From a virus, in the IMG/VR virus record IMGVR_UViG_3300042314_000343, positions 39,318-103,317 of that record: a stretch of DNA of 64,000 bases; one strand, given 5' to 3'. Of this stretch, positions 1,035 through 52,119 are shown piece by piece. Every line of letters begins with the position of its first letter. Position 1 is the first letter of the stretch. Below the pieces are notes generated by a model. It ran no database searches. It was given only the letters and a program-made list of their open reading frames with translations, and was not told the DNA's origin. The position numbers were made by a program, and so were the translations under genes.

Positions 1035-1043
1035 TGCTATAAT
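1035..1043 (+). promoter_or_regulatory. Extended -10 promoter, leaderless start at 1050
   Basis: TGCTATAAT followed by 6 bases and then the ATG at 1050, with no Shine-Dalgarno sequence. The predicted transcript start falls on or next to the start codon. No good -35 is visible, which is normal for TGN-extended promoters. Together with 1007-1016 it forms a perfect 10-bp inverted repeat (ATTATAGCAT / ATGCTATAAT) separated by 17 bases. Confidence 0.7.
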
Positions 1044-1049
1044 TAAAAC

Positions 1050-1565
1050 ATGGCACAAGGAAGATCAGACGGGCTGGACCTGCCCTACCCACTAGCAGAA
1101 GATTACGTCAACGTTCACGGAGACATTCGTCAGCTAGTAGAAAAGCTTGAGGTTGTACTACCTCCGCTTGGACTTTCGTATTTTCAGCTTCAGGTTACCA
1201 ATAACAGTGGTGCAGCCATAGCAGCAGGAGATCCTCTGGTTGCATCAGGTTTTACCACAAAGACAAACGTTAGAGAGGCTATTGCTGCTGACGTGCTACC
1301 AATTTTGGGTCTAGCTAAAGAAGCAATTCCAAACGGAACTGATGGCGTAGCTGTTGTTGCTGGAGTTCTAAATGGGGTAAACACTTCTGGATTTGCAGCT
1401 GGAGATATTCTATATGTTGGAGTATCTGGAGGACTTACCAATGTCAGACCTTCCGCAGGTGGAGGTGCCGTAGGGCTTGTTGCACACGCAGCAACAGATG
1501 GTGTAGTTATCGTTGAGCCAAAGGGCAATGGAACTTGGGGAGCACTCAAGGCTGGACTAGCCTAA
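1050..1565 (+). CDS. Putative virion structural protein
   Basis: 171 residues, rich in Gly, Ala and Val, with predicted beta character and no charged core or signal. The pattern G-D-I-L-Y-V-G followed by G-G-L-T-N and V-G-L-V-A-H (residues about 118-145) resembles beta-rich domains at the ends of phage head- or tail-decoration proteins. It is the first plus-strand gene of the fibre block, followed 18 bp later by an LtfC-like gene with its own promoter. The start is fixed by the promoter 6 bases upstream (leaderless). No named family is recognised; the structural role is inferred from composition and position. Confidence 0.55.
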   Translation: MAQGRSDGLDLPYPLAEDYVNVHGDIRQLVEKLEVVLPPLGLSYFQLQVTNNSGAAIAAGDPLVASGFTTKTNVREAIAADVLPILGLAKEAIPNGTDGVAVVAGVLNGVNTSGFAAGDILYVGVSGGLTNVRPSAGGGAVGLVAHAATDGVVIVEPKGNGTWGALKAGLA

Positions 1566-1568
1566 AGG

Positions 1569-1577
1569 TGGTATAAT
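1569..1577 (+). promoter_or_regulatory. Extended -10 promoter, leaderless start at 1584
   Basis: TGGTATAAT with 6 bases to the ATG at 1584 and no Shine-Dalgarno sequence. It lies immediately after the stop codon of the preceding gene. Confidence 0.65.
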
Positions 1578-1583
1578 AATAAA

Positions 1584-1973
1584 ATGGCCAGATCAAAATC
1601 TTATGAAGTCGGAAGTATTCCACCGCAGGTGGCGTGGACAGTAGTCCGTGGAGACACTGCCTCATTCAAGGTTTACGTTACAAATGATGCAAAGCAAGCA
1701 CTAGAGCTAGAAGACTGGACAATCGCAATGAAGATAAAGCGTCCAAACCTAGCTAAGAATTCTGGAATTATTACTGACGACGCCACTCTAATTTCTACCC
1801 TCACACCTGCCGCAGATGAGGACGACCTTCCTGGAGAGTTTACCGTATCTCTAACAGCTAACGAGTCTTTAAATCTGCAAACTGGAGACATATTTGATAT
1901 TCAGCTATCTCAGCCAGGAACTGTTTGGACAGTTGCCCAGGGAAGAATGGTTATCATTGAAGATGTGACATAA
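1584..1973 (+). CDS. LtfC-like beta-sandwich tail protein
   Basis: 129 residues. The pattern V-R-G-D-T-A-S-F-K-V-Y-V followed by L-E-L-E-D-W-T-I-A-M-K-I-K and a C-terminal D-I-Q-L (about residue 109) and V-A-Q-G-R-M-V-I is typical of the LtfC/Gp6-type beta-sandwich domain. Such proteins occur near tail-fibre genes in actinobacteriophages and are thought to be small structural connectors of the tail tip. The next gene overlaps its stop (TAATG), so the two are translationally coupled. Assignment is by remembered family pattern only. Confidence 0.6.
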   Translation: MARSKSYEVGSIPPQVAWTVVRGDTASFKVYVTNDAKQALELEDWTIAMKIKRPNLAKNSGIITDDATLISTLTPAADEDDLPGEFTVSLTANESLNLQTGDIFDIQLSQPGTVWTVAQGRMVIIEDVT

Positions 1974-2197
1974 TGGCAAAAGCAGTCATAGTAGCTGATA
2001 CAAAGCGACACACAAGAAAGATCACACCATCAAACTTTTTTAACTCAAAAATAAAGTTTAAGTCTGGAAATGCAAAGATAGACGAAGTTCTTCCATTCAG
2101 GGTTAAGTTTATAAACGTTGATATCGCTCAATACACAAGCACTACCCCAGCAGGTATTGGAATTGCAATCATTGGAGTTAGTAACTACATCTTGTAA
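1973..2197 (+). CDS. Small uncharacterised structural-region protein
   Basis: 74 residues, basic N-terminal half (K-R-H-T-R-K) and a Gly/Ile-rich end (G-I-G-I-A-I-I-G). The start overlaps the stop of the LtfC-like gene, so it is probably co-translated and may act with it. The C-terminal hydrophobic run is too short to call a membrane segment. No family is recognised. Confidence 0.6.
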   Translation: MAKAVIVADTKRHTRKITPSNFFNSKIKFKSGNAKIDEVLPFRVKFINVDIAQYTSTTPAGIGIAIIGVSNYIL

Positions 2198-2204
2198 AGA
2201 TAAA

Positions 2205-2213
2205 TGTTATAAT
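2205..2213 (+). promoter_or_regulatory. Extended -10 promoter, leaderless start at 2221
   Basis: TGTTATAAT with 7 bases to the ATG at 2221. No Shine-Dalgarno sequence is present in the intervening bases. Confidence 0.65.
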
Positions 2214-2220
2214 GTAATTT

Positions 2221-2544
2221 ATGGCTATTTTAACTATTCAGCAGTTGCTAAACAAATTTGGCCCTGGAGAGATTCCAAGATCTGACGACTACCAGGACCT
2301 AATTCAAACGCTCTCGGATGATAGAAATGCCGTCCACTTTTCTGACACACAGCCAGCAGACCCTTTGGCTACCCCAATATGGTTTAATACTTCTTCGCTC
2401 ACACTTTCCGTATATGACTCAGAGTGGAAGTCTGTTGGTGTACTTCTAGATATTTCCTCAGCTGCAAATGGAGATGTTCTGGTATATTCATCTAGTAATG
2501 ATGCCTGGGAAAACCAGTCCGTACTAGATGGAGGCACCCCATAA
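2221..2544 (+). CDS. Small virion/fibre-associated protein ending in LDGGTP
   Basis: 107 residues. The middle contains P-I-W-F-N-T-S-S-L-T-L-S-V-Y, a pattern common in phage fibre proteins (a 'flat' beta module around W-F-N/D-T). The protein ends in V-L-D-G-G-T-P, the same terminal motif as the protein ending at 5290 and an internal site in the large tail protein at about 15595. The N-terminal 45 residues resemble those of the next gene (R-S-D-D-Y-Q-D-L-I versus P-S-Q-S-D-Y-E-D-L-I). The role is unknown, probably a fibre or fibre-assembly component. Confidence 0.6.
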   Translation: MAILTIQQLLNKFGPGEIPRSDDYQDLIQTLSDDRNAVHFSDTQPADPLATPIWFNTSSLTLSVYDSEWKSVGVLLDISSAANGDVLVYSSSNDAWENQSVLDGGTP

Positions 2545-2560
2545 TCATAAAAAAAACCAG

Positions 2561-2566
2561 TATACT
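2561..2566 (+). promoter_or_regulatory. -10 box, leaderless start at 2573
   Basis: TATACT with 6 bases to the ATG at 2573 and no ribosome site. There is no TGN extension here, so this is the weakest of the leaderless promoters. It nevertheless selects the ATG at 2573 over an in-frame ATG at 2528. Confidence 0.5.
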
Positions 2567-2572
2567 TGTTAC

Positions 2573-3019
2573 ATGTCCAGATCCCAAATCACATATGTTA
2601 AGTCTCGCTTTGAAAGCGGAGACAGGCCATCACAATCAGACTACGAAGACCTGATTGATACCTCTACCGCTCAGGCTACAGACCTGGGCACCTTTGGAAA
2701 TAACGAAAACACCATCACAGGCATTGAGAACGTCACACACATTGATGAGTTTGATGCGACGGTATGGAGAATGGTAAAGTATGTAATCTCACTGTCAAAG
2801 ACGACCCAGGGAGACAACTACTTTTATGCAACAGAGTTGACCGTACTAATTGATGGAGAAGATGTCTCTGTTAGCGAGTACGGCACAATTGACAACGATG
2901 GGAATATGGGAACCATTAGCGTCTCTAGGACTGGAGATACGGTTAAACTTACCGTTACCCCAGATTCAGTCATTAAGCCAGTTACCGTACGTTTTGCACG
3001 TATGGGACTTAAGGCATAA
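2573..3019 (+). CDS. Putative fibre/structural protein
   Basis: 148 residues from the ATG at 2573. I chose it because a TATACT box lies 6 bases upstream and the upstream in-frame ATG at 2528 would overlap the previous gene and add a low-quality N-terminus. Residues 1-30 (Y-V-K-S-R-F-E-S-G, S-Q-S-D-Y-E-D-L-I) are similar to the previous gene. The C-terminal 90 residues are beta-rich, with D-N-D-G-N-M-G-T-I-S-V and V-R-F-A-R-M. They resemble the C-terminus of the next, 607-residue fibre (T-N-G-D-L-G-S-Y-S), suggesting a shared tip module. Function is inferred from similarity within the window. Confidence 0.6.
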   Translation: MSRSQITYVKSRFESGDRPSQSDYEDLIDTSTAQATDLGTFGNNENTITGIENVTHIDEFDATVWRMVKYVISLSKTTQGDNYFYATELTVLIDGEDVSVSEYGTIDNDGNMGTISVSRTGDTVKLTVTPDSVIKPVTVRFARMGLKA

Positions 3020-3039
3020 CTAAAACAGGAGATAATAAA

Positions 3040-4863
3040 ATGGCAACAGTCGTAAAAGACTTTAAGATTAAGAGCGGACTGGTTGTTGAGGGTACCACAG
3101 GAACCATCAACACCTACGACATTCTTACAAAGAAGCAAGCAGACCAGGATTACATCATTGGTCTTATCGGTGGCACAGCCACTTCAGAAAACACAGCAGA
3201 CACCGTTGTAAAGCGTGATGAGGATGGCAGCTTTGCTGCTGAAGTCATTACAGCAGAAGGCGGATTTGTTGGTAACCTAACAGGTGACGTAACAGGTGAT
3301 GTATCTGGTAATGCAGGTACCGCAACTGCACTAGAAACAGCTCGCACCATTGAGCTAACTGGTGACGTAACTGGCTCTGTATCATTTGATGGTACATCAA
3401 ACGTTCAGATCTCTGCAACCATTGATGGTGACTTTGCAACTGACTCAGAGGTAGCAACTGCTAAGCAGGAAGCTATTGATGCAGCTGCTCTAGATGCAAC
3501 TTCAAAGGCAGACGCCGCTGAAGAAGCCGCTAACGACTACACAGATGGTCGTGAAACAGCTATCACTACAGCTTACCAGTCTTACGCAGACCAGGCAGAG
3601 CTAGACGCTGTTGCAACTGCAGAGTCTTACACAGACGCTCGTGAGACTGCTATCACAACCGCTTACGAAGCATACGCTGACCAGGCAGAGGTAGACGCTA
3701 AGGCCTACACAGACGCTCGTGAAACAGCAATCACAACTGCCTACCAGTCTTACGCAGACCAGGCAGAAGTAGATGCTAAGGCATACGCAGACCAGAAGGT
3801 TGCAGACCTAGTAGATGGTGCACCAGCACTTCTAGACACTCTAAACGAGTTGGCAGCAGCACTTGAGGACAACCCAGATGTTATTGCTGACCTAAGAGAC
3901 ATTGCTGATGGAAAGCAGGACACCCTAACCGCAGGTGCAAACATTGACATTACAGGAGACACAATTTCTGTAACTGGTCTAGACACCAACGACGTTGCTG
4001 AAGGAACTAACCTTTACTTCACAGACGCTCGTGCAGTTACTGCAAACACTGGTCTATGGGACACCATTGGTGCCGCATCAGACGCACAGGAAGCAGCAGA
4101 GGACTTCGCTACCGCAGCAGACACAACCCTTTACGGAACTGTTACTGGCGACATCGCAACTGCAAAGTCGGAAGCTGGAACAATTGCTCAGGGCTATGCT
4201 AACACTGCAGAGCAGAACGCAAAGGACTACGCTGACGGAATCGTTGAAGAGCTTGACGGCATCGTTAACGACCTAACCACAGACGACATTGCAGAGGGTA
4301 CAAACCTTTACTTCACTGACGGCCGTGCCAAGACATCTGCAGCAGAGCTTCTAACTGGTGCAACCCTAACCAACATTACCATCACTGGTAACGGTTCTGG
4401 TCTAACAATTACCGCAGAAAACGGTGTAGCTGACTCTACCACTGACGACCTTGAAGAAGGAGAGGACAACCTTTACTTCCTAGACTCACGTGCAGTAACA
4501 GCTCTTGAAGCAGTAGTTCCAAACTTTACAGCTGTAGAGTTTAACTCTGTTGCAAAGCAGGTAGCTGCAGAGGCATCAGTCGCAACAGCAAGCACAAGCA
4601 ATGCACTAACATGGGCAAAGGCTGAGTACCGCTCTGCTGAGTTCCTAGTCAAGATCAAGCAGGGTAACCACACAGAGGTTTCCAAGCTAGTTCTAACAAT
4701 GGACGTATCTGACAACATTGCTATCACCGAATACGCAATGGTTGGAACTAACGGAGACCTAGGATCCTACTCTGCTACCGTATCTGGTGACAACGTAGCC
4801 CTAACCGTAACCACCCTAAACAATAACTCTGATGTTATGGTTGTAGGAACACTGCTTAAGTAA
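3040..4863 (+). CDS. Tail fibre with coiled-coil repeats
   Basis: 607 residues preceded by an AGGAG site. Near residues 80-130 is the repeat G-D-V-T-G-D-V-S-G-N-A-G-T-A-T-A-L, common in phage fibres. Residues about 167-250 contain tandem 26-residue repeats (Y-T-D-A-R-E-T-A-I-T-T-A-Y) expected to form a trimeric coiled coil. Three copies of the N-L-Y-F-T-D-x-R-A fibre module follow at about 325, 425 and 478. The C-terminal 100 residues form a beta-rich tip with similarity to the tip of the preceding 148-residue protein. It is probably a long, thin host-contacting fibre. Arg codons are mostly CGT and Leu mostly CTA, unlike the AGA-rich neighbouring minor genes, suggesting strong expression. Confidence 0.8.
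   Translation: MATVVKDFKIKSGLVVEGTTGTINTYDILTKKQADQDYIIGLIGGTATSENTADTVVKRDEDGSFAAEVITAEGGFVGNLTGDVTGDVSGNAGTATALETARTIELTGDVTGSVSFDGTSNVQISATIDGDFATDSEVATAKQEAIDAAALDATSKADAAEEAANDYTDGRETAITTAYQSYADQAELDAVATAESYTDARETAITTAYEAYADQAEVDAKAYTDARETAITTAYQSYADQAEVDAKAYADQKVADLVDGAPALLDTLNELAAALEDNPDVIADLRDIADGKQDTLTAGANIDITGDTISVTGLDTNDVAEGTNLYFTDARAVTANTGLWDTIGAASDAQEAAEDFATAADTTLYGTVTGDIATAKSEAGTIAQGYANTAEQNAKDYADGIVEELDGIVNDLTTDDIAEGTNLYFTDGRAKTSAAELLTGATLTNITITGNGSGLTITAENGVADSTTDDLEEGEDNLYFLDSRAVTALEAVVPNFTAVEFNSVAKQVAAEASVATASTSNALTWAKAEYRSAEFLVKIKQGNHTEVSKLVLTMDVSDNIAITEYAMVGTNGDLGSYSATVSGDNVALTVTTLNNNSDVMVVGTLLK
3538..3783 (+). repeat. Tandem repeat in tail-fibre gene
   Basis: Three in-frame units begin with Tyr-Thr-Asp at 3538, 3628 and 3706. 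The last two are exactly 78 bp (26 residues) and the first is 90 bp. They encode alanine-rich helical repeats with Tyr-Ala-Asp-Gln. A partial fourth unit starts at 3784. The repeats probably set shaft length and could expand or contract by recombination. Confidence 0.85.
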
Positions 4864-4903
4864 GCAAAACAAAACAAGTTAATCTGAAAGGAGGAGTATT
4901 TAA

Positions 4904-5290: not shown

Positions 5291-5318
5291 TCTTTAACCC
5301 TGTTTGCAAAAAAATAAC

Positions 5319-13419: not shown

Positions 13420-16400
13420 ATGTCTAGACCTTCTAATTTATACGCCGAGAAAATATTCTCCGAGCACCCAGTCGCTATGTGGGCTTTAGACGAGCAGGCT
13501 GATTATGTATCAATTATAGATGAAGACTTCAGGCTACTATCTGACTCGTCTAATTGGACGATAACTAATGGCACAATGGAAGATACCGTTTCTGGGCCAC
13601 TACAATCACCTTTCCCAGATAGCCATACATGTTTGTCTACAACAGATCACGAAGATGACAGTATCACAATCCTTAGCGACTTTGTCCCCAACATCTTTTC
13701 TGTTTCTGGAGGAATATTAAGCTTTGACGACCTAAACAAAGATCTTGGCACATTGTGCATCGGAATGTACGTATACTCACAGTCTGAAAATACTACGGGG
13801 TATGAGATAGGCTACTCCTATTTTGACTCAGTTTCTGCAGAAAGCGTAGAGGTAACCAAAAGCTTTGATATTGAAACTTATGGCAAATGGCTGCACATAT
13901 CTGCAACATTTCCAATCTTAGATCAAGATGTTTCATTCAAGCTATTGTTTAGGTCAAAGTTCAAGCAGTCTATAGTGACACCAACCCCACATACCGTTCT
14001 TTACAATGGCCTTACTTTGGGGCAGTGGTCAGAAGAATTTTGTTCAACATCCTTGGGCTCAGATGTAATTGACATCCCAGAAGAAATAGGTTTTTTGCCA
14101 GAAGGGTACAAGGCAATAGAGGCAAGGTCCTATTCTAGAGAAGACATCCCAGGATATTACCTAGTTAGCGGATCCTCTATCTATGCCAAGAATTCTGGTA
14201 TTCCGTTAGTGTATGGTGCTGAAAACTCAACTGTTATTTACGAAAATCTGAATGAGACAGAGGCTCCATCACTTATAGTCCCAGGACTTGGGTTCCTTAA
14301 TGGTAATGGCAGATACCAGACAATGACTGCAGAGATGTGGCTCAACATAAACTCCTCAACATTTGAGCTAAAAAGAATTTTCGGACCAGTGTTTTCAACA
14401 GATGGCCTTTATGTAGACGGTGCATTCTTAGGGCTAAAGATTGGAAACAGCTATAGTTCTCACTACGTTGGTGAGTGGGCAAGACCAATGCTAGTGCATA
14501 TCAGATATTCAGAATCCGCAGCCAGCCTGCTGATAAATGGAGAGGAAGTTATAAACCTAGTTTTTGACCAGTCAACCATAAACTTTCCAGACCCAGAGGT
14601 AGAAGGCGTAAGCACCGACTGGCTTGGCTTTTATGCTCATGAGCACATCTCACCAATCCTTGTAGACTGCGTTGCAATATATGGATACAAAGTTCCACCA
14701 GTTGTCGCAAAAAGAAGATTTGTTTACGGTCAGGGCGTAGAGTTTCCAGAGAATATCAACAACGCCTATAGCGGAACAACTACATTCTTTGACTATTCAT
14801 TCTCTAAGTATTCAAATAACTACTCTTATCCAGGAGCTGGCTCTTGGACACAGGGGGTATACAACAACCTTGATCTACAGAAGAATTACCTTGCAACAAA
14901 GAGCTACGAAAAGCCACAGCTAATTTTTGACACTTTCGGAAGAGATATTTATCAAGAATGGAAGCAGGATAGTCTAGAGGTAACGCAGGAAACCTCGCCA
15001 TTCTTTTCCCTAAAACCAAACAGCAATTGGAATGGACTGAACGGATACATATACTTTGACAAGTATCAGATGATTGATGAGCCAGTAGCAGCTTTTTATG
15101 GTATTTTTAAAGTTTCGCAACTTACTAGCTCAGAGCAAGTCCTATTTAGAATAGACGACAAGCTCCAGGATAGGTACTTTGAGATAGTTCTTGTTAATAA
15201 TATAATTAAGTATAACTTTAAGGATAGCAACGCCAGCATCGAAACCCTGTACCAAACTGAAAGTGTTATTCCTGGAGAGCAGTTCACTATAGGAATTTCT
15301 GTAAAAGATTTTGTTAGCTATTTCGAAGGTAACATGAGGCCATTCTTTGGAAATCCTAGCCAGCTTTCGATGAGCGTGGGGGGCAGATCAGAGCTATCCT
15401 CAACATTTTCTGGAAAGATATACTCCATATCTATCCTTAATGCCCAGAGCCTTCTGACCGTTCCATATATGTTTTCTGCTCGTGGAATACCAGTCGACTA
15501 CGAGTACGGCTTTGACGAATACGACTCCTTTGTACTCTATGATGCTGGAGACGAATACTTTGGAAATGATGGTTCATATTGGCAGCACATTCTTGACGGT
15601 GGTACCCCAACATCATTTATCACCGCCAGAGCACTTGGACATACTGGAACTTATACGCTAAGAGCCAAAGAGGTTTTTGACAACTTTGATCTGTGCGTAT
15701 CTACAAGCTCTACCTGGGAAGACTATCTTCCCCTTAGCTATTTTGCAAGGTACGTCACTAACGAAAAAGGCAAGAGCTACTACGACCTTGACTTTATTCA
15801 GTTCAACATAGACTATCCTGCACCAAATAAATTTTCTAAGATAGACACTCAGGGCGGTCAGTGGACTTACGGCGACCTATATGAAGAATACTCGTTGCCA
15901 ACAAAGAAGACATACGAAGTTTTGTCAAACCAGCTATTCACTGGGTACGACAACTATGCCGATCTAGCACAGAGGTCATCATTTGAGTATGTATACGATA
16001 CCGCAGAAGCAATGGTAAAAACATACGTAATGTTTTCCTACACCTCATCACTTAAAGGAACCCTGTCTGGAAAATACTCAAACACTGTTAGTCTGCCAAA
16101 GAGTGGTATTGTCGTGCCAGGCGATGACTGGCTGACCACCAGGTACGAGGTTGTAGACAACTCTATCATCTATCCACCAGCTGGGGTAAACGTTAATCAG
16201 ATAGTTATGACAACTCAGGTAGAGATTGTTAATCCAGACACAGAGACATACCCAATAGCAATTAGATCTATTCAGTATTCTCCACAGTCTTTAGAGAAAT
16301 CTTCCCCAACTGCAATTGGTACAAGATTTGGAATTGATGTTGCTCCATACACACAGAATGGCTTTTACGTAGATTATGCTGCAAACAATCCGTTTAGCGT

Positions 16401-17195: not shown

Positions 17196-17204
17196 TGGTA
17201 TACT
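17196..17204 (+). promoter_or_regulatory. Extended -10 promoter, leaderless start at 17212
   Basis: TGGTATACT, 7 bases before the ATG at 17212, with no ribosome site. It begins inside the intergenic space directly after the tail-protein stop. Confidence 0.65.
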
Positions 17205-17211: not shown

Positions 17212-17589
17212 ATGAAACCACAAAAACCACGCATGCCTGGTCAAATAGGCGACACAAAGATAAGAGTTATCGAAGAAAACTTTTCAAATTTTGGAACTTA
17301 CGTTTGGGTTAAGCCAAATGGAAAGCCATTCATGGATTCCGACAAGAATGTTTTGTCCATTGAAGGCATGAGGGATGACAAGTCAAAGATTAGAGAGCTT
17401 GCAGACGCTGCAAAGTACTGGGGACAGCCAGATGGTCGTGCCGTATTCTACCCAAACATGAAGAAGATCTCCGATGAAGAGCACTCCGAGCAGGTAGACA
17501 GAATGAGCCAGGGATTAATTCCAAGCCTGAATGACCTTGGTGCTGTCATGGCAGCAAAGAAAACACTAGAACTTTATGGAGATGAGTAG
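17212..17589 (+). CDS. Uncharacterised head-module protein
   Basis: 125 residues. An in-frame TTG lies 6 bases earlier, but the ATG at 17212 fits the promoter geometry of other leaderless genes here and is preferred. The N-terminus is basic and proline-rich (K-P-Q-K-P-R-M-P-G), followed by G-T-Y-V-W-V-K-P-N-G-K-P-F. The rest is helical and charged. It overlaps or touches the portal gene start and is the first gene of the head operon. No family is recognised. Confidence 0.6.
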   Translation: MKPQKPRMPGQIGDTKIRVIEENFSNFGTYVWVKPNGKPFMDSDKNVLSIEGMRDDKSKIRELADAAKYWGQPDGRAVFYPNMKKISDEEHSEQVDRMSQGLIPSLNDLGAVMAAKKTLELYGDE

Positions 17590-19236: not shown

Positions 19237-19277
19237 TGTTATAATTATGTAATAATATTGTAAAAGGGAACTATAAT
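19237..19277 (+). promoter_or_regulatory. Two -10 boxes before the protease gene, the second leaderless
   Basis: TGTTATAAT at 19237-19245 and a second TATAAT at 19272-19277. The second lies 7 bases before the ATG at 19285 with no ribosome site. The first would give a leader of about 30 bases. Confidence 0.6.
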
Positions 19278-19284: not shown

Positions 19285-20625
19285 ATGACTATTTCAAAAG
19301 TTCAGTGGGACACCGAGGGTGAGAATGTTCGCCTCTCTATGCCGTTTAGCAAGGTAGACAAGGAGCGAAGAATCGTCTCTGGTTTTGCTACCCTAGATAA
19401 CGTTGATCGTCAAAAAGATATTGTAACTGCAGAAGCCTCTGTAAAGGCATTCTCAAAGTTCCGTGGCAACATCCGTGAGATGCACCAGCCACTAGCCGTT
19501 GGGAAAATGGTATCGTTCAGAGAGGACAAATACTTTGACCCAGAGACAAAGAAGTTCTATTCTGGTGTCTATGTTTCTGCATATGTTTCAAAGGGTGCAC
19601 AGGATACTTGGGAAAAGGTCCTGGATGGCACCCTTTCTGGCTTCTCTATCGGTGGCCGTATGAACAAGTACGACGACGCTTATGACGACACCACCAACTC
19701 ACCAATTAGAATTATTAAGGAGTACGACCTGATGGAGCTATCCTTGGTTGACACTCCAGCAAACCAGTTTGCAAACATCCTGTCTGTTCAAAAGGTGGAC
19801 GGTATTGACGTAGTAAAGGGTGACTCCCTAAACGTTGAGATTGAGAATGTATTCTGGGATCCAGAGTCTGGCGTAGTAAAGATTTCTGAGAATGACACAG
19901 AGGTTAGCCCAACAACTGGCAACCCAATGCAAAATATAGGTTTCGTTGAAAAGAATGATAACGAAAAAACAAACATGATAAAGTTCTTAGTTGATAGTGC
20001 TAAAGGCATTAATACATCTAAGATTAACAAGGAGGTAAGTCCTATGACTGACACAACAAATGAGGTAGTTGAGACTCCTGCTCAAGAAGCAGTCGTTGAA
20101 GAAACTACAGTTGAAGAATCACAGGTCGCTCCAGAGGCAGATGCCCCAGTAGAAGAAGCAGCAGATGCAGCAGTTGAGGTAACAGAAGTTACTGATGCTG
20201 ACGCCGAAGAAGTTCTTGTAACCGAAGTAGCAGAAGAGTCAGAAGGCTCAGAAGAAAACCAGGTGACAGAAGAGTCGGATGCTGTGACTGAGGATGTATC
20301 TAAGTCAGACGAGGCTCTTGAGACTGCTGTTGCAGACATCAAGGACACCGTTACAAAAGCCTTTAGCGACCTAACTGCAGTTGTTCAGGCACAAGCCGAA
20401 CAAATTGCAGAGCTACACAAGTCACTTGCCGCAGTAAAGAATGAGGTAACTGCAAGCAAGGACGTGTTTAATGAGTTTGGAAAGAGAGTGGATGCCGTAG
20501 AGGCCGACACAGCTTTCCGCAAGTCTGGCGATCTTGGCGAGATCGTACAGGAAACTGAACCAGAACAGGTTCAGAAATCCCTATGGGGCGGACGTTTCCT
20601 CAAAACTGCCGATCTATTTAGATAA
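19285..20625 (+). CDS. Prohead protease fused in frame to scaffold
   Basis: 446 residues. Residues 1-170 are an S78-type prohead serine protease: I-V-S-G-F-A-T near 30, the catalytic His in E-M-H-Q-P (His67), the catalytic Ser in G-F-S-I-G-G (Ser121) and L-S-L-V-D-T-P-A-N-Q near 150. Residues about 254-446 are an acidic, Glu/Val/Ala-rich domain with a helical end typical of scaffolds. An internal ribosome site and start (ATG at 20044) would make that domain separately. The protease matures the procapsid by cleaving scaffold and itself. The start is probably leaderless (TATAAT 7 bases upstream). Confidence 0.9.
   Translation: MTISKVQWDTEGENVRLSMPFSKVDKERRIVSGFATLDNVDRQKDIVTAEASVKAFSKFRGNIREMHQPLAVGKMVSFREDKYFDPETKKFYSGVYVSAYVSKGAQDTWEKVLDGTLSGFSIGGRMNKYDDAYDDTTNSPIRIIKEYDLMELSLVDTPANQFANILSVQKVDGIDVVKGDSLNVEIENVFWDPESGVVKISENDTEVSPTTGNPMQNIGFVEKNDNEKTNMIKFLVDSAKGINTSKINKEVSPMTDTTNEVVETPAQEAVVEETTVEESQVAPEADAPVEEAADAAVEVTEVTDADAEEVLVTEVAEESEGSEENQVTEESDAVTEDVSKSDEALETAVADIKDTVTKAFSDLTAVVQAQAEQIAELHKSLAAVKNEVTASKDVFNEFGKRVDAVEADTAFRKSGDLGEIVQETEPEQVQKSLWGGRFLKTADLFR
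20044..20625 (+). CDS. Capsid scaffolding protein, nested in frame in the protease gene
   Basis: 193 residues beginning M-T-D-T-T-N-E, in the same frame as the protease. The ATG is preceded by AAGGAGGT with 7-base spacing, one of the best ribosome sites in the window and placed exactly at the end of the protease domain. The product is strongly acidic (Glu/Val/Thr/Ala repeats) with a helical region near A-Q-A-E-Q-I-A-E-L-H-K-S-L-A and a basic C-terminus (W-G-G-R-F-L-K). That layout is expected for a scaffold that binds the capsid protein through its tail. Nested scaffolds are known in lambda-type phages (C/Nu3). Confidence 0.8.
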   Translation: MTDTTNEVVETPAQEAVVEETTVEESQVAPEADAPVEEAADAAVEVTEVTDADAEEVLVTEVAEESEGSEENQVTEESDAVTEDVSKSDEALETAVADIKDTVTKAFSDLTAVVQAQAEQIAELHKSLAAVKNEVTASKDVFNEFGKRVDAVEADTAFRKSGDLGEIVQETEPEQVQKSLWGGRFLKTADLFR

Positions 20626-21846: not shown

Positions 21847-21860
21847 ATATCTGATATAAT
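21847..21860 (+). promoter_or_regulatory. Extended -10 promoter for the connector genes
   Basis: TGATATAAT at 21852-21860, directly after the capsid terminator, with an AGGAGG site before the ATG at 21878. The 14-mer ATATCTGATATAAT is identical at 41594-41607. Confidence 0.7.
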
Positions 21861-25668: not shown

Positions 25669-25708
25669 AACTGCCCTGGCATTAATTTGCTGGGGCAGTT
25701 TGCTTTTT
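25669..25708 (+). terminator. Intrinsic terminator after the tail-tube gene
   Basis: A 12-bp stem (AACTGCCCTGGC / GCTGGGGCAGTT with two G-T pairs), loop ATTAATTT, then TGCTTTTT. The T-tract runs directly into the next promoter. Confidence 0.88.
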
Positions 25709-25716
25709 GGTATACT
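25708..25716 (+). promoter_or_regulatory. Extended -10 promoter, leaderless start at 25723
   Basis: TGGTATACT, 6 bases before the ATG at 25723, no ribosome site. It overlaps the last T of the terminator tail. Confidence 0.68.
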
Positions 25717-25722: not shown

Positions 25723-26421
25723 ATGCCAACTACAGTTTATAACTCAGAAAACATCGTCCTAGTCGACGGCACAGAAATTTACATAACTCCACTAAAGATA
25801 AAGTATCTCAGACAATTCATGGAATCTTTTGAACTAGTAAAGGCTTTAGGCAACACAGACGAGGCCTTTGATCAGCTACTTGAGTGTGTCCGAATTGCAA
25901 TGAAGCAATACTTTCCAGCAATCAAGACCGTCCAGGATGTTGCAGATAATCTAGATATGGCAACAATGTATAAGCTAATAGATATCGCTGGCGGAATATC
26001 TAACAAGAAGCCAGACGAAGAGCAGAAGCAAGAAAAGACAGGAGATGGAGACTCATCTTCTAGCTGGAGAAACTTAGACTTAGCAAAGCTTGAGGCAGAG
26101 GTGTTTTTGCTGGGTATCTGGAAAGACTACGAAGAGCTAGAGTCATGTCTATCAATGCCAGAACTAACAGCAACTCTTGAGATTAAGAGAGAGATAGATT
26201 ATCAAGATAAGAAGTTTAATGCTGCAATGCAGGGGGTAGATCTTGACAAGCAGAGTGGAAAGAGTGAGCAAAACAAGTGGGAAGAAATGAAGGCACGAGT
26301 ATTCTCTGGAGGAAAGACTACAGATGGAAATGACATTCTTGCATTCCAGGGGGCCAATGCTGCTAAGGCAGGTTTTGGAATCGGCTTAGGCCTTGCCTAC
26401 GAGGATCTGTCTGAAAAATAA
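25723..26421 (+). CDS. Tail assembly chaperone, long (G-T type) form
   Basis: 232 residues from the ATG at 25723, chosen because of the promoter 6 bases upstream; an earlier in-frame start at 25687 lies in the terminator. Residues 1-95 are homologous to the short chaperone at 26476 (V-D-G-T-E-I-Y-I-T-P-L-K-I versus I-D-G-T-E-I-S-V-R-P-L-K-I). Residues about 117-232 form the extra domain (K-L-E-A-E-V-F-L-L-G-I-W, S-M-P-E-L-T-A-T-L-E) normally added by frameshifting. Arg codons are AGA/CGA and the start is leaderless, both suggesting lower expression than the short form. It binds the tape measure during tail assembly. Confidence 0.85.
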   Translation: MPTTVYNSENIVLVDGTEIYITPLKIKYLRQFMESFELVKALGNTDEAFDQLLECVRIAMKQYFPAIKTVQDVADNLDMATMYKLIDIAGGISNKKPDEEQKQEKTGDGDSSSSWRNLDLAKLEAEVFLLGIWKDYEELESCLSMPELTATLEIKREIDYQDKKFNAAMQGVDLDKQSGKSEQNKWEEMKARVFSGGKTTDGNDILAFQGANAAKAGFGIGLGLAYEDLSEK

Positions 26422-41594: not shown

Positions 41595-41607
41595 TATCTG
41601 ATATAAT
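41594..41607 (+). promoter_or_regulatory. Extended -10 promoter, leaderless start at 41614
   Basis: TGATATAAT at 41599-41607 with 6 bases to the ATG at 41614 and no ribosome site. ATATCTGATATAAT is identical to the promoter at 21847-21860. It begins over the stop codon of the small Fn3-like gene. Confidence 0.7.
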
Positions 41608-41613: not shown

Positions 41614-42060
41614 ATGGCAAAAATTCCACTACCGCAAACGGGCCAGCCGATGGACGTTTCTTACATCTATCAGCTAGCTAATGCTATCAATGATGTTGCA
41701 AAGCAAATATCACCATCTAACTATAAGTTTTTCACAATCCATACCCCTGCACGTGGTAGGGAAAGTGTTAAGAACATGGAAGCCAGAACGGTTGCTGCAC
41801 ACGTAGTCGTTGCTAGCGAAAAGCCAGTTACTTCTGGAGAAGAGCTAACATTCTCATATGAGTTTGACACAGACTTTTCCTACCCACCAATTGTTACCGC
41901 TACCATCTTTAATAGTGGATCGTCTATTGGAAACGCATCTACGGTAATTCTTAAAACTGTTACTACCAGCAAGATCGATGGTATTGTAAAGTTTACTACC
42001 AACGGAAATGTTTCGGTAGGTGTAAACATTATAGCTATTGGTATTCCTACAAACGGATAG
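41614..42060 (+). CDS. Putative receptor-binding/virion surface protein
   Basis: 148 residues with a leaderless start. The N-terminal 40 residues (Y-I-Y-Q-L-A-N-A-I-N-D-V-A) are helical and may attach to the virion. The C-terminal 85 residues are beta-rich with F-D-T-D-F-S-Y-P-P-I-V-T-A-T-I and V-S-V-G-V-N-I-I-A-I-G, the H-type-lectin-like pattern of fibre tips. It closes the tail module. Its independent promoter suggests different timing or level from the hub genes. Confidence 0.55.
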   Translation: MAKIPLPQTGQPMDVSYIYQLANAINDVAKQISPSNYKFFTIHTPARGRESVKNMEARTVAAHVVVASEKPVTSGEELTFSYEFDTDFSYPPIVTATIFNSGSSIGNASTVILKTVTTSKIDGIVKFTTNGNVSVGVNIIAIGIPTNG

Positions 42061-46133: not shown

Positions 46134-46139
46134 CATATC

Positions 46140-46210: not shown

Positions 46211-49200
46211 ATGAGCTACGTTGGACTTCACGTTCACACGCACTACAGTCTTTTTGATGGTATCGCAACTCCACAGGAATATGTGGAACGTGCCAAAGAG
46301 ATTGGCATGCCTGCTATTGCTATTACCGACCACGGATCTCTTTCTGGTCACCGTGAGATGTATCGCATAGCCAAGGAAAATGGCATCAAGCCAATCCTTG
46401 GTATTGAGGGGTACATCACTAAAGACCGTCATGACCATGAAGATAAGAAAGATAAGAACGATCCCCTAGACTTAAACTACAACCACCTAATTATCCTTGC
46501 AAAGAATGCACAGGGCTTAGAGAACCTAAACAAGCTTAACGAGCTAGCCTGGACAGAAGGCTTTTTCAAGAAGCCAAGGATGGACTGGGAGATTCTGACC
46601 AAGTACCGTGAAGGCCTTGTAGTTACTTCTGGATGTCTATCTGGATACTTAGCTAAAGCAATCGAAGCTGACAACTTAGCTGCTGCCAAGATGCACCTCA
46701 CTTGGGCAAAGAAAACTTTTGGGGATGACTATTACATTGAGGTAATGCCACACAACCCAGCAGAGATTAATAAGGTACTACTCCAGCTCGCAGACGAGTT
46801 TGGAATCAAGTCTATTGTAACTCCAGACTGCCACCATGCACACACTGGGCAGAGAGAAATCCAGGAGCTAAAGCTTATCCTTAACTCTTATTCAAATAAG
46901 ACTGTTAAAGATGTTACATACGACAAGTCATGTAAGCACGATAATCTTATGGACCGTCTAGACTATCTATACGGTGCAGACCGTCAAATGACGTTCCGTG
47001 ACTTTGAGATTCACCTACTCTCTGATGAAGAGATGCACAAGGCTATGGAGGCCCAGGGTATCGATCGCCAAGACATTTACGACAATACTGTTGAGGTGTC
47101 TAACAAGATCGAAGATTACGAAATCAAAGACCACCTTGACCTGCTTCCAGTGCAGTATCAAAATCCAAATAAGGAGTTGCGAGAGTTAGCCATTGCAGGG
47201 CTAGAAAAGCGTGGCATTAAGAATGACCAGTACCTAGCTCGCCTAGACGAAGAGCTAGAGGTAATTGAGGCAAAGAACTTTGGACCATACTTCTTGGTGG
47301 TTCGCAATATGATTTCTTGGGCTAAGAAAGAAGGCATCATGGTGGGGCCAGGACGTGGTTCTGCAGCAGGGTCGCTGCTCTGCTATGCTCTGGATATCAC
47401 AGACATTGATCCTATCCAGCACGGACTTCTATTCTTCCGATTCATTAACCCTGAGCGTAATGACTTCCCAGATATCGATACAGACATTCAGGACAACCGT
47501 CGTGAAGAGGTAAAAGACTATCTGGTCCGCCAGTATCGCCACGTAGCCTCCATTGCAACCTTCCTACAGTTTAAGGACAAAGGTGTTGTTCGTGACATTG
47601 CACGAGTACTGATGATCCCTCTGACTGACGTAAACAAGGTCATGAAGGTTGTAGATACTTGGGACGACTACTGTGGCTCTAAGCAGGCTGCATGGTTCCG
47701 TGAGAAGTATCCAGAGGTAGAGAAGTATGGAGAGCAGCTACGTGGTCGTATTCGTGGCACTGGTATTCACGCAGCAGGTGTTGTTACCTCCAAGGAACCA
47801 ATCTTTAAGTTTGCACCGCTAGAGACTAGAACGTCTCCAGGAAGCAAGGAGCGTATTCCTGTGGTGGCGGTAGACATGGAAGAGGCAGAAAAGATTGGCC
47901 TTATTAAGATTGACGCTCTAGGTCTAAAGACGCTATCTGTTATTCAGGACACTCTCAAGATTATTAAAGAAAGAAATGGTGCAGAACCAGATCTTCACGC
48001 CATTGATATGGAAGACAAGAACATTTATCAGATGCTTTCTGATGGATACACAAAGGGTGTATTCCAGTGTGAAGCCACACCGTATACCAATCTGATAGTC
48101 AAGATGGGTGTCAAGAACTTTGCAGAACTTGCAGCCTCTAACGCTCTGGTTCGACCAGGTGCTGCTAACACTATTGGTAAAGACTACATTGCACGTAAGC
48201 ACGGTAAGCAGAACATCTCCTACCACCACCAGGTGATGAAGGCGTTCACCGCTGAGACCTACGGATGTATTCTATATCAGGAACAGGTTATGCAGGCTTG
48301 TACAGAGCTTGGCGGTATGACAATGGCTGAGGCTGACAAGGTTCGTAAGATCATTGGTAAGAAGAAGGATGCCAAGGAGTTTGACCAGTTTAAGGACAGG
48401 TTCGTAAAGGGTGCATCTAACTTTATTCGCCCAGAGGTAGCAGAAGAGCTGTGGCACGACTTTGAGGCACACGCAGGGTACTCATTTAACAAGTCTCACG
48501 CTGTAGCATACTCAACACTGTCATACTGGACTGCCTGGCTAAAGTATTACTACCCAATTGAGTTTATGTACTCTATTCTAAAGAATGAGGGCGACAAGGA
48601 TGCTCGCACTGAGTATCTTATTGAAGCCAAGCGTATGAATATTCCTATTCGCTTGCCACACATCAATGACTCAGATGCTGACTTTAAGATTGAGGGCAAG
48701 GGTATTCGATTTGGTCTAAGCTCAATCAAGTACATTAGCGATAACATTGCTGGCAAGTACTTGGCGAGGAGACCATTCAAGTCCTACAAGGAGCTGGAAG
48801 AGTTTACGCTTCAAAAGAATAGCGGAGTAAACTCTCGTGCCCTACAGGCCCTCAGACTCACTGGTGCAGCAACCTTTGACGATAACCCTAGAAACGATGA
48901 GGATGTTCGACAGAACCTGTACGAGTACCTAAACTTGCCAGAGTTCAATGTATCTATTCCACCACACTACTACGCATTTATAAATGAGGTAGATGAGTTT
49001 GAGGAAAAAGGATCATTTGTTTTGCTGGGAATGGTTAAGAACATCAAGAGAGGCACTGGCTGGTCACGTGTAGAAATTCTAGACAAGACTGGTAGTGTTG
49101 GAATCTTTGACGATGAGCAGACTGCAATTGAGCCAGGAAAGACTTATCTTATTCTTGCAAGTGACAACAGAATTGTTTCGGCAATCCCGTCTGACGAGAT

Positions 49201-49486
49201 CAAGAACTCGGACTCTGCATTGGTAAAGTTCCTAGGGTATCGTCAGCTACCATTCAAGGATGAAGAGATGTTTGTCGTAGCGTTTAAGCCACGAGTAACA
49301 AAGACTGGAAAGAAGATGGCATACCTAACTCTTGCGGATACTAACAGAGAGCTTCACCCAGTCACAGTCTTTCCAACATCGTTTTCAAAAGCATACATGA
49401 AGATTGATGAAGGTAAAGCATATAAGTTTAGTTTTGGAAAAACTAAGGATGGAACGGTAATTATGGAGGATGTAGAAAATGTCTAA
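46211..49486 (+). CDS. dnaE: DNA polymerase III alpha-type (DnaE) polymerase
   Basis: 1091 residues. The N-terminal PHP domain has H-V-H-T-H-Y-S (residues 7-13) and A-I-T-D-H-G-S near 38, with P-D-C-H-H-A-H further on. The polymerase core has G-P-G-R-G-S-A-A-G-S near 380 and the catalytic P-D-I-D-T-D near 419-424. A C-terminal OB-fold region follows the tandem HhH-type segment. It is shorter than most bacterial DnaE. A separate DEDD exonuclease (51168) could provide proofreading. The gene has its own consensus promoter and likely serves as the replicative polymerase. Confidence 0.95.
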   Translation: MSYVGLHVHTHYSLFDGIATPQEYVERAKEIGMPAIAITDHGSLSGHREMYRIAKENGIKPILGIEGYITKDRHDHEDKKDKNDPLDLNYNHLIILAKNAQGLENLNKLNELAWTEGFFKKPRMDWEILTKYREGLVVTSGCLSGYLAKAIEADNLAAAKMHLTWAKKTFGDDYYIEVMPHNPAEINKVLLQLADEFGIKSIVTPDCHHAHTGQREIQELKLILNSYSNKTVKDVTYDKSCKHDNLMDRLDYLYGADRQMTFRDFEIHLLSDEEMHKAMEAQGIDRQDIYDNTVEVSNKIEDYEIKDHLDLLPVQYQNPNKELRELAIAGLEKRGIKNDQYLARLDEELEVIEAKNFGPYFLVVRNMISWAKKEGIMVGPGRGSAAGSLLCYALDITDIDPIQHGLLFFRFINPERNDFPDIDTDIQDNRREEVKDYLVRQYRHVASIATFLQFKDKGVVRDIARVLMIPLTDVNKVMKVVDTWDDYCGSKQAAWFREKYPEVEKYGEQLRGRIRGTGIHAAGVVTSKEPIFKFAPLETRTSPGSKERIPVVAVDMEEAEKIGLIKIDALGLKTLSVIQDTLKIIKERNGAEPDLHAIDMEDKNIYQMLSDGYTKGVFQCEATPYTNLIVKMGVKNFAELAASNALVRPGAANTIGKDYIARKHGKQNISYHHQVMKAFTAETYGCILYQEQVMQACTELGGMTMAEADKVRKIIGKKKDAKEFDQFKDRFVKGASNFIRPEVAEELWHDFEAHAGYSFNKSHAVAYSTLSYWTAWLKYYYPIEFMYSILKNEGDKDARTEYLIEAKRMNIPIRLPHINDSDADFKIEGKGIRFGLSSIKYISDNIAGKYLARRPFKSYKELEEFTLQKNSGVNSRALQALRLTGAATFDDNPRNDEDVRQNLYEYLNLPEFNVSIPPHYYAFINEVDEFEEKGSFVLLGMVKNIKRGTGWSRVEILDKTGSVGIFDDEQTAIEPGKTYLILASDNRIVSAIPSDEIKNSDSALVKFLGYRQLPFKDEEMFVVAFKPRVTKTGKKMAYLTLADTNRELHPVTVFPTSFSKAYMKIDEGKAYKFSFGKTKDGTVIMEDVENV

Positions 49487-49724
49487 CGAATCAGTATTGA
49501 TTTATGTAAAGCCACAGTGTGTGCAGTGCGACCAGACAAAAAGACTTTTGGATAGAGAGGGCATTGAGTATTCAACTATTGACATTACTCAGGATGCCGA
49601 AGCTCTTGAAAAGGTCTTGGCCTTGGGATTCAAGTCAGCACCAGTAGTGGTAACAGAAGAAGAGTCTTGGGCTGGTTTTAACCCAGCAAAGATTAACAGT
49701 CTTGTAGAGAGGAGCAAACAATGA
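49479..49724 (+). CDS. nrdH: NrdH-type glutaredoxin-like redoxin
   Basis: 81 residues overlapping the polymerase stop. The redox motif is C-V-Q-C near residue 13-16 with V-K-P-Q before it. The later S-A-P-V-V-V and E-S-W-A-G-F-N-P are the substrate-binding parts of NrdH. NrdH reduces class Ib ribonucleotide reductase; the matching NrdI, NrdE and NrdF genes are 8 kb downstream. Confidence 0.88.
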   Translation: MSNESVLIYVKPQCVQCDQTKRLLDREGIEYSTIDITQDAEALEKVLALGFKSAPVVVTEEESWAGFNPAKINSLVERSKQ

Positions 49725-50731
49725 CAACAATAGAAGAAGCACTAGCACTACTTGATCCAAAGATCAGAAAGCGTTTGGCAACAGGCGTAGGAATTAAAAC
49801 AGAGTTTCAGCCTACCCCAAGTCCAGGTCTAAATCGTGCATTAGGCGGAGGATTCCCGTACGGAAGACAAGTCCTTTTGTGGGGAAGTAAGTCAAGTGCA
49901 AAGTCTTCGCTATGTTTGCAGACGATTGCCCTTGCTCAGAAAGAGGGCAAGCTATGTGCATGGATTGACGCAGAGATGTCATACGATGAGGAGTGGGCCA
50001 CTAGCCTTGGCGTAGATACAAGCCAGCTAATCTACTCTGAAGCCAGGAGCATTAACGACATGGTTGATGTTGGCGTTGCACTGCTACACGCAGGTGTGGA
50101 CGTAATCGTGATAGACAGTATTAGCTCACTACTACCAGCGGTATACTTTGAGAAGGACTCTGACGAACTAAAGGCACTAGACCAGACCAAGCAGATTGGT
50201 GCAGAGTCCAAGGACCTAAAGCATGCATGGCTAATGCTTAACTACGCAAACAATCGTGAGAAGCCTGCATTGATTATTGCAATTTCTCAAGCACGAAACA
50301 ATATCCAAGCTACATATACTCAGTCAGCACCAACTGGGGGCTTGACTACGCAGTTTATGTCGTCTACAATTGTTAAGTTGTTCTCATCAAGCTCAGATTC
50401 TCAAGCCATCAAGGGCAAGGTCAAGGTTGGCGACAAGATTATTGAGCAGAAGGTTGGACGCAAGGTTCGTTGGGAAGTTCTAAACTCTAAGACATCCGCA
50501 CCAGGAGACAGTGCTGAATACGACTTCTACTACAGGGGTGACTACATCGGCATTGATTCAGTTGGAGACCTGGTTGACACTGCAGAAATGCTAGGGCTGG
50601 TTTCTCGTACTGGTGCCTGGTATCAGCTAGAGGATGGCACCAAGCTGCAAGGAAGAGATGCATTTGTATCAAAGGTGAGAGAAGATCTAGAGCTACAGGA
50701 ATCAATTAGAAAGAAGTTGATGGATGTCTAA
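49721..50731 (+). CDS. recA: RecA/UvsX-type recombinase
   Basis: 336 residues overlapping nrdH by 4 bp. The ATP-binding loop reads G-S-K-S-S-A-K-S (55-62); the usual Gly before Lys is Ala. Walker B is V-I-V-I-D-S-I-S-S-L near 127. Loop regions S-Q-A-R-N-N-I and S-S-T-I-V-K-L-F follow, with an ordinary C-terminal domain. It would make recombination filaments for repair and recombination-dependent replication. Some phage recombinases also have relaxed P-loops, so I regard it as active. Confidence 0.9.
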   Translation: MTTIEEALALLDPKIRKRLATGVGIKTEFQPTPSPGLNRALGGGFPYGRQVLLWGSKSSAKSSLCLQTIALAQKEGKLCAWIDAEMSYDEEWATSLGVDTSQLIYSEARSINDMVDVGVALLHAGVDVIVIDSISSLLPAVYFEKDSDELKALDQTKQIGAESKDLKHAWLMLNYANNREKPALIIAISQARNNIQATYTQSAPTGGLTTQFMSSTIVKLFSSSSDSQAIKGKVKVGDKIIEQKVGRKVRWEVLNSKTSAPGDSAEYDFYYRGDYIGIDSVGDLVDTAEMLGLVSRTGAWYQLEDGTKLQGRDAFVSKVREDLELQESIRKKLMDV

Positions 50732-50900
50732 GTATACCGTTTACTCTGGAAAGTTTCCTTGCCACACTTGTAAAGAAGTTGTGCTATCTCTAAGGCTTTA
50801 TAGTGCTGATAAAAATCTTACTTGGCTTTGTTCTCAGGGTCACATGAGCACGGTATCGCTTGTAACAAAGAAGAAGAAGGACTATGAGCGAGAGAAGTGA
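50724..50900 (+). CDS. Small zinc-finger protein
   Basis: 58 residues beginning inside the recA stop region. A four-ligand zinc site is seen as C-H-T-C near residue 13 and C-S-Q-G-H near 36. The basic C-terminal K-K-K-K-D-Y-E-R-E-K is consistent with nucleic-acid binding. Such a protein occurs next to recombinase genes in many actinophages. Too short for domain statistics, but it fits neatly between recA and the next gene. Confidence 0.7.
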   Translation: MSKYTVYSGKFPCHTCKEVVLSLRLYSADKNLTWLCSQGHMSTVSLVTKKKKDYEREK

Positions 50901-51165
50901 GTCTAAGAGAATTGGTGCCAAGCAGATAAAGAATAGCGGAAGAGGCACCAAGAAGGGCGATGCAACCTGGAACAACTTCACTGTTGATTTTAAGGAGTAT
51001 CCAAAAGGCTTTACCATCAACCAGGATTCCTGGGCAAAAGCAGTAACAGATGCAATGAAAAACAAAAATGACCCAGCAATCATCGTGGTTCTGGGAGAAG
51101 GAAATATAAAGACTAGACTTGCAATAATAGAGCTATCTCTACTAGAGCAACTAATTGAGGAATAA
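50884..51165 (+). CDS. PDDEXK-type Holliday-junction resolvase-like protein
   Basis: 93 residues overlapping the zinc-finger gene by 17 bp. The arrangement R-I-G-A-K-Q-I-K-N-S-G-R-G near 9, K-K-G-D-A-T near 23 and V-D-F-K-E-Y near 34 resembles the Hjc-type nuclease core (G-D ... D-x-K). W-A-K near 50 and V-V-L-G-E-G near 68 finish the small fold. A junction-cutting role would fit between recA and the exonuclease, but the catalytic assignment is uncertain. Confidence 0.5.
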   Translation: MSERSESKRIGAKQIKNSGRGTKKGDATWNNFTVDFKEYPKGFTINQDSWAKAVTDAMKNKNDPAIIVVLGEGNIKTRLAIIELSLLEQLIEE

Positions 51166-51167
51166 TT

Positions 51168-51794
51168 ATGAAAATACTACTACTAGATATTGAAACAACT
51201 CCAATGCAGGTATATGCTTGGGGACTATGGGACCAGAACATTAGTATTGACCAGATCATTAAGAGTACTGAGATGCTTTGTTTTGGTGCACGATGGCTAG
51301 GGGAGAAGAAGGTTATCTTCAAGTCTGTCCACCACGATGGCAAGCAGGCCATGCTAGAAGAGCTACACAAGCTTATGAGCGAGGCAGATCTTCTTGTCGG
51401 ATGGAACTCAGCAGCGTTTGACCACAAGCACATTAACCGTGAGTTCTTGGAGAATGGAATGACACCACCGTCACCAGTCAAGGACCTTGACCTTATGAGT
51501 GTTACAAAGGCAAACTTCCTGTTCCCATCGAACAAGCTTGACTATGTCGCCCAAAAGCTTGGTGTTGGTGCCAAGGTAAAGCACTCTGGATTCAGCCTCT
51601 GGATTAAGTGCATGGATGGCGACGAGAAGGCATGGGCAGAGATGAAGAAGTATCAGATCCAGGACGTAAACCTTCTTGTTGATCTATACGAAAAGCTGCT
51701 GCCTTGGTTTGTTGGTGCTGGACGAGCAACTGCAAAAGAAAAGCAGGCGATTTCTTCAACAGAGACTATCGTAGACACGGAAGCCGTGGTATAA
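51168..51794 (+). CDS. DEDD 3'-5' exonuclease (DnaQ-like)
   Basis: 208 residues with GAGGAA ribosome site. Exo I is L-L-D-I-E-T-T (4-10), exo II is G-W-N-S-A-A-F-D-H near 80-88, and exo III is the late Y-Q-I-Q-D-V near 163. This is the DEDD arrangement of proofreading exonucleases. It may proofread for the DnaE polymerase, which has no such domain, or act in recombination with RecA. It may equally be a degradative enzyme for host DNA. Confidence 0.82.
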   Translation: MKILLLDIETTPMQVYAWGLWDQNISIDQIIKSTEMLCFGARWLGEKKVIFKSVHHDGKQAMLEELHKLMSEADLLVGWNSAAFDHKHINREFLENGMTPPSPVKDLDLMSVTKANFLFPSNKLDYVAQKLGVGAKVKHSGFSLWIKCMDGDEKAWAEMKKYQIQDVNLLVDLYEKLLPWFVGAGRATAKEKQAISSTETIVDTEAVV

Positions 51795-51795
51795 T
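51787..51795 (+). promoter_or_regulatory. Extended -10 promoter, leaderless start at 51802
   Basis: TGGTATAAT inside the end of the exonuclease gene, with 6 bases to the ATG at 51802 and no ribosome site. Confidence 0.66.
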
Positions 51796-51801
51796 TAAAC
51801 G

Positions 51802-52119
51802 ATGGAACAATCAACAAAAACAGACAAGACAACTATTGAAATGATTAATGGTCTAGCAGAGATTGCAGACTTTATGGAAGACGAAGAGCTTACTCAGGCA
51901 CTAACCTTTATTGCCAAGCTAATCGTTAGACCAGACATTCCAATTAACGTTGCAACTGTGGAGATCGTTCGTCTACAGGCAATCGCAGCCAAGATGGCAT
52001 TCAAGGCCACTTGGATGGTAAACGTTGAAAAAGGGAATCGGGAGAAGAAGAACATTTACTTCACTGCACATGAGGCTATTTCAGATCTTGTGTCAGCACT
52101 AAAGTACATCGTTCGATAA
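51802..52119 (+). CDS. Uncharacterised helical protein
   Basis: 105 residues, mainly helical, with a leaderless start. Visible runs include N-G-L-A-E-I-A-D-F-M-E-D-E and A-I-A-A-K-M-A-F-K-A-T-W. It lies between exonuclease and Cas4-like nuclease genes, so a part in DNA processing is possible. No family is recognised. Confidence 0.6.
   Translation: MEQSTKTDKTTIEMINGLAEIADFMEDEELTQALTFIAKLIVRPDIPINVATVEIVRLQAIAAKMAFKATWMVNVEKGNREKKNIYFTAHEAISDLVSALKYIVR

Follow-up and report, generated by a model that had tools for sequence, protein, structure and literature searches.

Leaderless genes in bacteria and phages

The cI mRNA of phage lambda, transcribed from PRM, is a leaderless phage message. Leaderless initiation in lambda is cited in PMC3160421, where TA-led leaderless genes of bacteria carry a TANNNT motif whose first T lies some 12 bp 5' of the start codon. 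Leaderless genes with such spacing are well described in Actinobacteria and Deinococcus-Thermus (PMC3160421, PMC12340547), and switching between Shine-Dalgarno (SD)-led and leaderless starts is known between related bacterial genomes (PMC3160421). Leaderless SigA promoters were predicted in Cluster O mycobacteriophages (PMC4351075) and for Adephagia gene 90 (PMC11373665). Here, nine genes of a virus contig (IMG/VR record IMGVR_UViG_3300042314_000343; 103,317 bp, GC 43.4%) are described which have a TATAAT or TATACT hexamer, a -10 box, 6-7 nt before the ATG. They are located in the window, the whole stretch of 64,000 nucleotides analysed, which covers bases 39318-103317 of the contig; negative window coordinates denote the contig part upstream of it. 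The boxes very probably represent host-sigma promoters from which a minority of the genes, in a phage with an actinobacterial host, would be transcribed as leaderless or near-leaderless mRNAs.

The arrangement shares with TA-led genes (PMC3160421; mycobacteria, PMC4633059; Deinococcus, PMC12340547) the TANNNT spacing, the missing SD sequence, an exchange with SD-led starts and a -10 box adjoining the open reading frame (ORF). As in that class, boxes lie at a gap of 6, the gap being the number of nucleotides between the end of the -10 hexamer and the ATG, and SD sequences are missing there while other genes have one. The TA-led systems are chromosomal genes of hosts and, in mycobacteria and Deinococcus, are backed by transcript evidence; the predicted leaderless genes described here lie on a phage contig and have the full TGNTATAAT box. 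Cluster O mycobacteriophages and Adephagia are likewise actinobacterial phages with SigA-like boxes, for which one to a few promoters per genome were reported; here there are about 13, conserved at the level of single genes across host genera and supported by a statistical test. Lambda cI is one regulatory gene of an enterobacterial phage, in contrast to a gene set that includes virion genes.

The closest relatives of the DnaE, portal, head maturation protease and pre-portal proteins are found in Streptomyces phages of the Stanwilliamsviridae; pre-portal, portal and protease proteins also match Rhodococcus phages (both about 35-56% identity). Replication and head genes are homologous to those of the Stanwilliamsviridae and their order is conserved. 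With the Stanwilliamsviridae (Streptomyces BE-type) and the Rhodococcus Trinavirus and Weaselvirus phages, the contig has portal, protease, pre-portal gene and head-gene order in common, and with the Streptomyces phages also DnaE. The promoter placement agrees for the pre-portal gene and, in most cases, for the protease. The window phage differs in its GC content (43% vs 49-53% in two relatives measured), in a window without tRNA genes and in extended -10 promoters without -35. At this protein identity, it may perhaps represent a sister group of the Stanwilliamsviridae.

The literature search found no systematic account of leaderless transcription in this phage family (subscription journals were outside the search). 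The initial annotation had considered systematic use by phage virion genes little described; the search agrees with this for the phage group, and predictions for other actinophages exist, as cited above. The locus is a new, well-conserved case of the known leaderless-gene phenomenon. It stands out by its conservation at head genes across host genera.

Putative promoter boxes at gene starts

All nine hexamers and spacings of the initial annotation were verified. The hexamer is TATAAT at 1050, 1584, 2221, 19285, 41614 and 51802, and TATACT at 2573, 17212 and 25723. The gap is 6 nt at 1050, 1584, 2573, 25723, 41614 and 51802, and 7 nt at 2221, 17212 and 19285. A TGN extension directly before the hexamer, characteristic of extended -10 promoters, was confirmed for seven of the nine boxes (absent at 2573 and 19285) and is present in 11 of 14 boxes at gaps 6-7 contig-wide. 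None of the nine starts has a convincing SD sequence with usable spacing, also as originally described.

Chance had been judged an unlikely cause, and the counts support this. On the plus strand of the window, TATA[AC]T-N6/7-ATG occurs 10 times, whereas 100 first-order Markov simulations gave 0.88 on average and 3 at most; the window minus strand has none. The ten cases are the nine gene starts and an in-gene ATG at 61930, which opens a 31-codon frame inside another gene. For TGN-bearing boxes at 6-7 nt, 7 cases compare with a Markov value of 0.01. Across the whole contig, with starts from a simple codon-usage gene caller, a box at gap 6-7 precedes 14 of 139 gene-start ATGs and 8 of 3248 other ATGs (Fisher P=5e-15), and the motif is not equally frequent at random places. 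A degenerate TANNNT scan of the window phage gave only about threefold enrichment because the signal resides in the full TATAAT or TATACT.

No gene start of the contig has a box at gaps 8-15. A second set of starts has the box 16-30 nt upstream, often together with an SD sequence; in the window, the leadered promoter TGATATAAT (21852-21860, plus strand) lies 17 nt 5' of ATG 21878, which has the SD sequence AGGAGGT. Leaders of 2-9 nt would be too short for an SD sequence; the two-mode gap pattern would therefore fit two initiation modes.

Outside the window, further called genes of the leaderless type start at -29183, -28311 and -4003, and at -24076 on the minus strand. One of the 14, -18853, is doubtful, as an SD-led start is located three codons upstream in this gene. 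Two small uncalled ORFs, -24040 (61 aa) and -4563 (94 aa), probably belong to the same class. Leaderless-type genes are a minority, about 13 of some 115 called genes. The remaining genes have an SD sequence, depend on coupling to an upstream gene or show no recognisable signal. The leaderless regime proposed initially is thus supported in spacing, SD exclusion and conservation as a prediction of leaderless mRNAs, but it is a mixed regime and not a general one.

Leaderless-type genes in the window

All features in this section are on the plus strand. The extended -10 promoter TGCTATAAT (1035-1043) is located 6 nt 5' of ATG 1050, the start of a 171-aa gene without assigned function (1050-1565) that is divergent from its neighbour. 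The box is kept in 5/5 orthologs at gaps 6-10. Promoter TGGTATAAT (1569-1577), 6 nt 5' of ATG 1584, lies inside the 18-nt gap after the preceding stop codon; its gene (1584-1973, 129 aa) belongs to phrog_1084, a family of unknown function. Promoter TGTTATAAT (2205-2213) precedes ATG 2221 by 7 nt and a 107-aa gene with no function assigned (2221-2544). The next box, TATACT without TG (2561-2566), is 6 nt 5' of ATG 2573, a gap found in 9/9 orthologs. This gene (2573-3019, 148 aa) has a weak match to tail/baseplate connector families.

In the head region, promoter TGGTATACT (17196-17204) lies 7 nt 5' of ATG 17212 of the pre-portal gene (17212-17589, 125 aa, phrog_9394). A TATAAT without TG (19272-19277) is located 7 nt 5' of ATG 19285 of the head maturation protease gene (19285-20625, 446 aa). 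In the tail region, before a large tape-measure-like ORF, a second TGGTATACT promoter (25708-25716) precedes ATG 25723 by 6 nt; the 232-aa gene (25723-26421) has no assigned function. A terminator-like hairpin followed by a T-tract (25670-25699) is located directly 5' of this promoter. The T-tract leads straight into the promoter, and relatives show the same arrangement. Terminator coupling as a general rule was rejected: a hairpin is present upstream of 25723 and -29183 only, at about the background rate.

Promoter TGATATAAT (41599-41607) lies 6 nt 5' of ATG 41614 of a 148-aa gene without assigned function (41614-42060), 180 nt from the neighbouring gene. The last promoter, TGGTATAAT (51787-51795), contains the stop codon of the preceding gene within its box and is 6 nt 5' of ATG 51802 (51802-52119, 105 aa, phrog_9818, a family of unknown function).

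The initial description as virion genes is clear for the head maturation protease; the pre-portal gene and 25723 are assigned by position only. At three genes, the longest-ORF starts (17206 TTG, 25687 TTG and 2528) are wrong and the conserved starts are 17212, 25723 and 2573. Such starts are likely to be misplaced by gene callers that do not model leaderless genes, and the boxes predict the exact start codons where longest-ORF calling errs.

Conservation in metagenomic and cultured relatives

In 172 related loci of metagenomic origin, which are not statistically independent, pooled boxes peak at gap 6 (69 observed vs 1.7 expected), gap 7 (40 vs 1.1) and gap 9 (33 vs 1.6). Counts are low at gaps 10-15 and increase again at 17. 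SD sequences occur at 1.8% of the starts with gaps 6-7, 2% with gaps 8-10 and 59% with gaps 16-32; adjacent box and SD sequence are mutually exclusive. The gap-9 peak stems largely from protease orthologs. TATAAT-N6-ATG exceeded its reversed-pattern control in each of 11 related contigs (107 vs 10 in total), while TATAAT-N13-ATG was close to its own reversed control.

Gene by gene, the pre-portal box is kept in 34/37 freshwater orthologs and the protease box in 50/50 distinct orthologs, at gaps 7-10. Orthologs of 25723 have a strict box in 16/24 cases and most others have TACAAT near the same position. Among orthologs of SD-led control genes, the box is almost absent. At 41614, about a third of the relatives have a more distant box, often with an SD sequence, and many relatives of 51802 are SD-led with a more distant box. 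Some relatives of both genes have the adjacent box without SD sequence, others a farther box with an AGGAG or AAGGA site. Both genes switch between leaderless-type and SD-led promoters, which suggests that orthologous genes are able to swap leaderless for SD-led starts.

The signature extends to cultured soil phages, where it is present at two head genes. In BillNye and Jay2Jay, a hand-copied subset of 185 start codons as given by the depositors was used. TANNNT at gap 6 was found at 19 of the 185 starts, compared to 3.7 per gap (P=2e-8). An SD sequence is absent from all 22 starts with gaps 6-7, whereas 87/185 starts overall have one. A -10-like box is present 6-7 nt before the annotated start of the pre-portal gene in 11 Streptomyces and 4 Rhodococcus phages, as TATAAT or TACAAT, with a weaker TATGAT in the Jay2Jay group. 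For the protease, the BillNye/Annadreamy group has TATTAT or TAATAT at a gap of 6 nt, and the box of all four Rhodococcus phages is at 9 nt. Phages of the Jay2Jay group, whose protease start overlaps the gene before it, have a weak protease box or none. The adjoining capsid gene of the cultured phages has a strong SD sequence of the GGAGGTGA, AGAGGTGA or AAAGGAG type. These relatives with the same signature at named genes make the idea directly testable. The conservation suggests that whole phage families have adapted their expression to the leaderless translation typical of Actinobacteria, head genes included.

Proposed mechanism and alternatives

Promoter activity, exact start sites and leaderless translation are predicted as follows. 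The boxes would be extended -10 promoters of the sigma-70/SigA type, TGNTATAAT, for which a -35 is dispensable. The host SigA holoenzyme would bind and melt TGNTATAAT and initiate 7 nt past the box, which is the A of the ATG. Transcription beginning on this A or within 1-3 nt would yield a leaderless or nearly leaderless mRNA, and actinobacterial ribosomes could initiate at the 5'-terminal AUG without an SD sequence. About 13-15 phage genes would be served, among them the pre-portal gene and that of the head maturation protease. Further genes would either have this promoter 16 nt or more upstream, combined with an SD leader, or depend on upstream messages. A compact layout is a speculative advantage: an 18-nt intergenic gap fits a whole extended -10 and the start, as at 1584 and 17212. 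Such promoters would serve as compact leaderless expression parts.

Some observations weigh against this mechanism. TTGACA-like -35 matches at 16-18 bp spacing were not detected above background in the window phage (2.42 matches vs 2.55 in shuffled sequence); the lack of this signal would therefore imply reliance on extended -10 promoters, and two of the nine window boxes have no TGN. Many protease orthologs have gaps of 8-9, with a predicted leader of 2-3 nt. These would be near-leaderless mRNAs, which fit broader definitions and are apparently translated more poorly in mycobacteria (PMC4633059). Several boxes are located 7-28 nt past the preceding gene, and read-through messages could cover the starts. 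The dependence among relatives and the simple gene caller behind the contig start set also reduce the weight of the counts.

A bolder version of the mechanism regards the leaderless genes as a set under deliberate regulation. For instance, their translation might persist under infection or stress that changes initiation factors or SD-dependent ribosomes, or a complex of phage WhiB and SigA might time them, and the arrangement would have been retained at these head genes from a time before the Streptomyces, Rhodococcus and freshwater lineages of the phages diverged. This seems rather unlikely. A specificity encoded or modified by the phage, either its own sigma-like factor or a WhiB-guided SigA acting on a timed gene class, would be compatible with host-sigma promoters, and the WhiB gene, a sub-threshold match to sigma region 4 and the missing -35 in the window phage point in this direction. 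It is improbable, as the motif equals the host consensus, leadered genes share the box and no sigma region-2 domain was found on the contig. A phage sigma factor was rejected as a candidate for lack of region 2; the region-4-like match at contig 13890-13964 is weak and below the cut-off.

Alternatively, the promoters may be real, with transcripts starting a few bases off or serving downstream genes, while the adjacent gene is translated by coupling on a read-through mRNA. The upstream gene is indeed close at 1584, 2221, 17212 and 51802, and the gap of 8-9 in many protease orthologs would agree. Coupling would not fix the box-to-ATG distance, yet the ATG is fixed at 6-7 nt and SD sequences are nearly absent from the class. 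In addition, gene 1050 and its neighbour are divergent, 180 nt separate 41614 from the adjacent gene, and a terminator-like hairpin precedes 25723. This explanation is distinctly improbable.

That the AT-rich hexamer is an unstructured ribosome-entry region or a composition effect instead of a promoter, in a genome of 57% AT and with AT-rich starts common in phages, is extremely improbable given the specific TGN and TATAAT, the sharp spacing with empty gaps 8-15, the occurrence of this box far 5' of SD-led genes, the near-chance counts of the reversed patterns, the -35 boxes of the cultured relatives and the lack of an effect at T4 gene starts. The cultured phages had 3.85 -35 matches vs 2.48 in shuffled sequence, and the Weasels2 protease promoter consists of TTGACA, a 17-bp spacer and TATACT. 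In the AT-rich E. coli phage T4, no gene start in the 40 kb examined had a box at 6-7 nt; TATAAT-N6-ATG occurs 8 times in the whole genome vs 2 in the control, with zero at gene starts within those 40 kb.

Host and further features of the contig

The host of the phage with these predicted leaderless genes is likely an actinobacterium, perhaps a low-GC aquatic one, because the nearest relatives infect Streptomyces and Rhodococcus and the contig carries a WhiB gene, a marker specific to Actinobacteria. This agrees with the host suggested initially. A protease scan of genome contigs gave no match that would link the contig to a host. A DnaE scan of genome contigs yielded one 3.7-kb contig (CANHQP010000094.1; phage DnaE 74% identical) in the bin of a Flavobacteriia metagenome-assembled genome. 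It is probably a stray, mis-binned viral contig and was not used as host evidence.

At contig 15239-15279 (window -24078 to -24038), two divergent TGGTATAAT promoters are arranged back to back, both with an ATG at a gap of 6. The leftward ORF codes for 70 aa and the rightward ORF for 61 aa with a CPACG motif. Many leftward genes on the minus strand between about -19400 and -6000 (contig about 19900-33300) have an AGAAAG ribosome-binding site, which matches the extreme 3' end of the 16S rRNA instead of the usual GGAGG core. The first and last approximately 160 bases of the contig are near-identical with few mismatches, which suggests a circular or redundant genome with strain variation.

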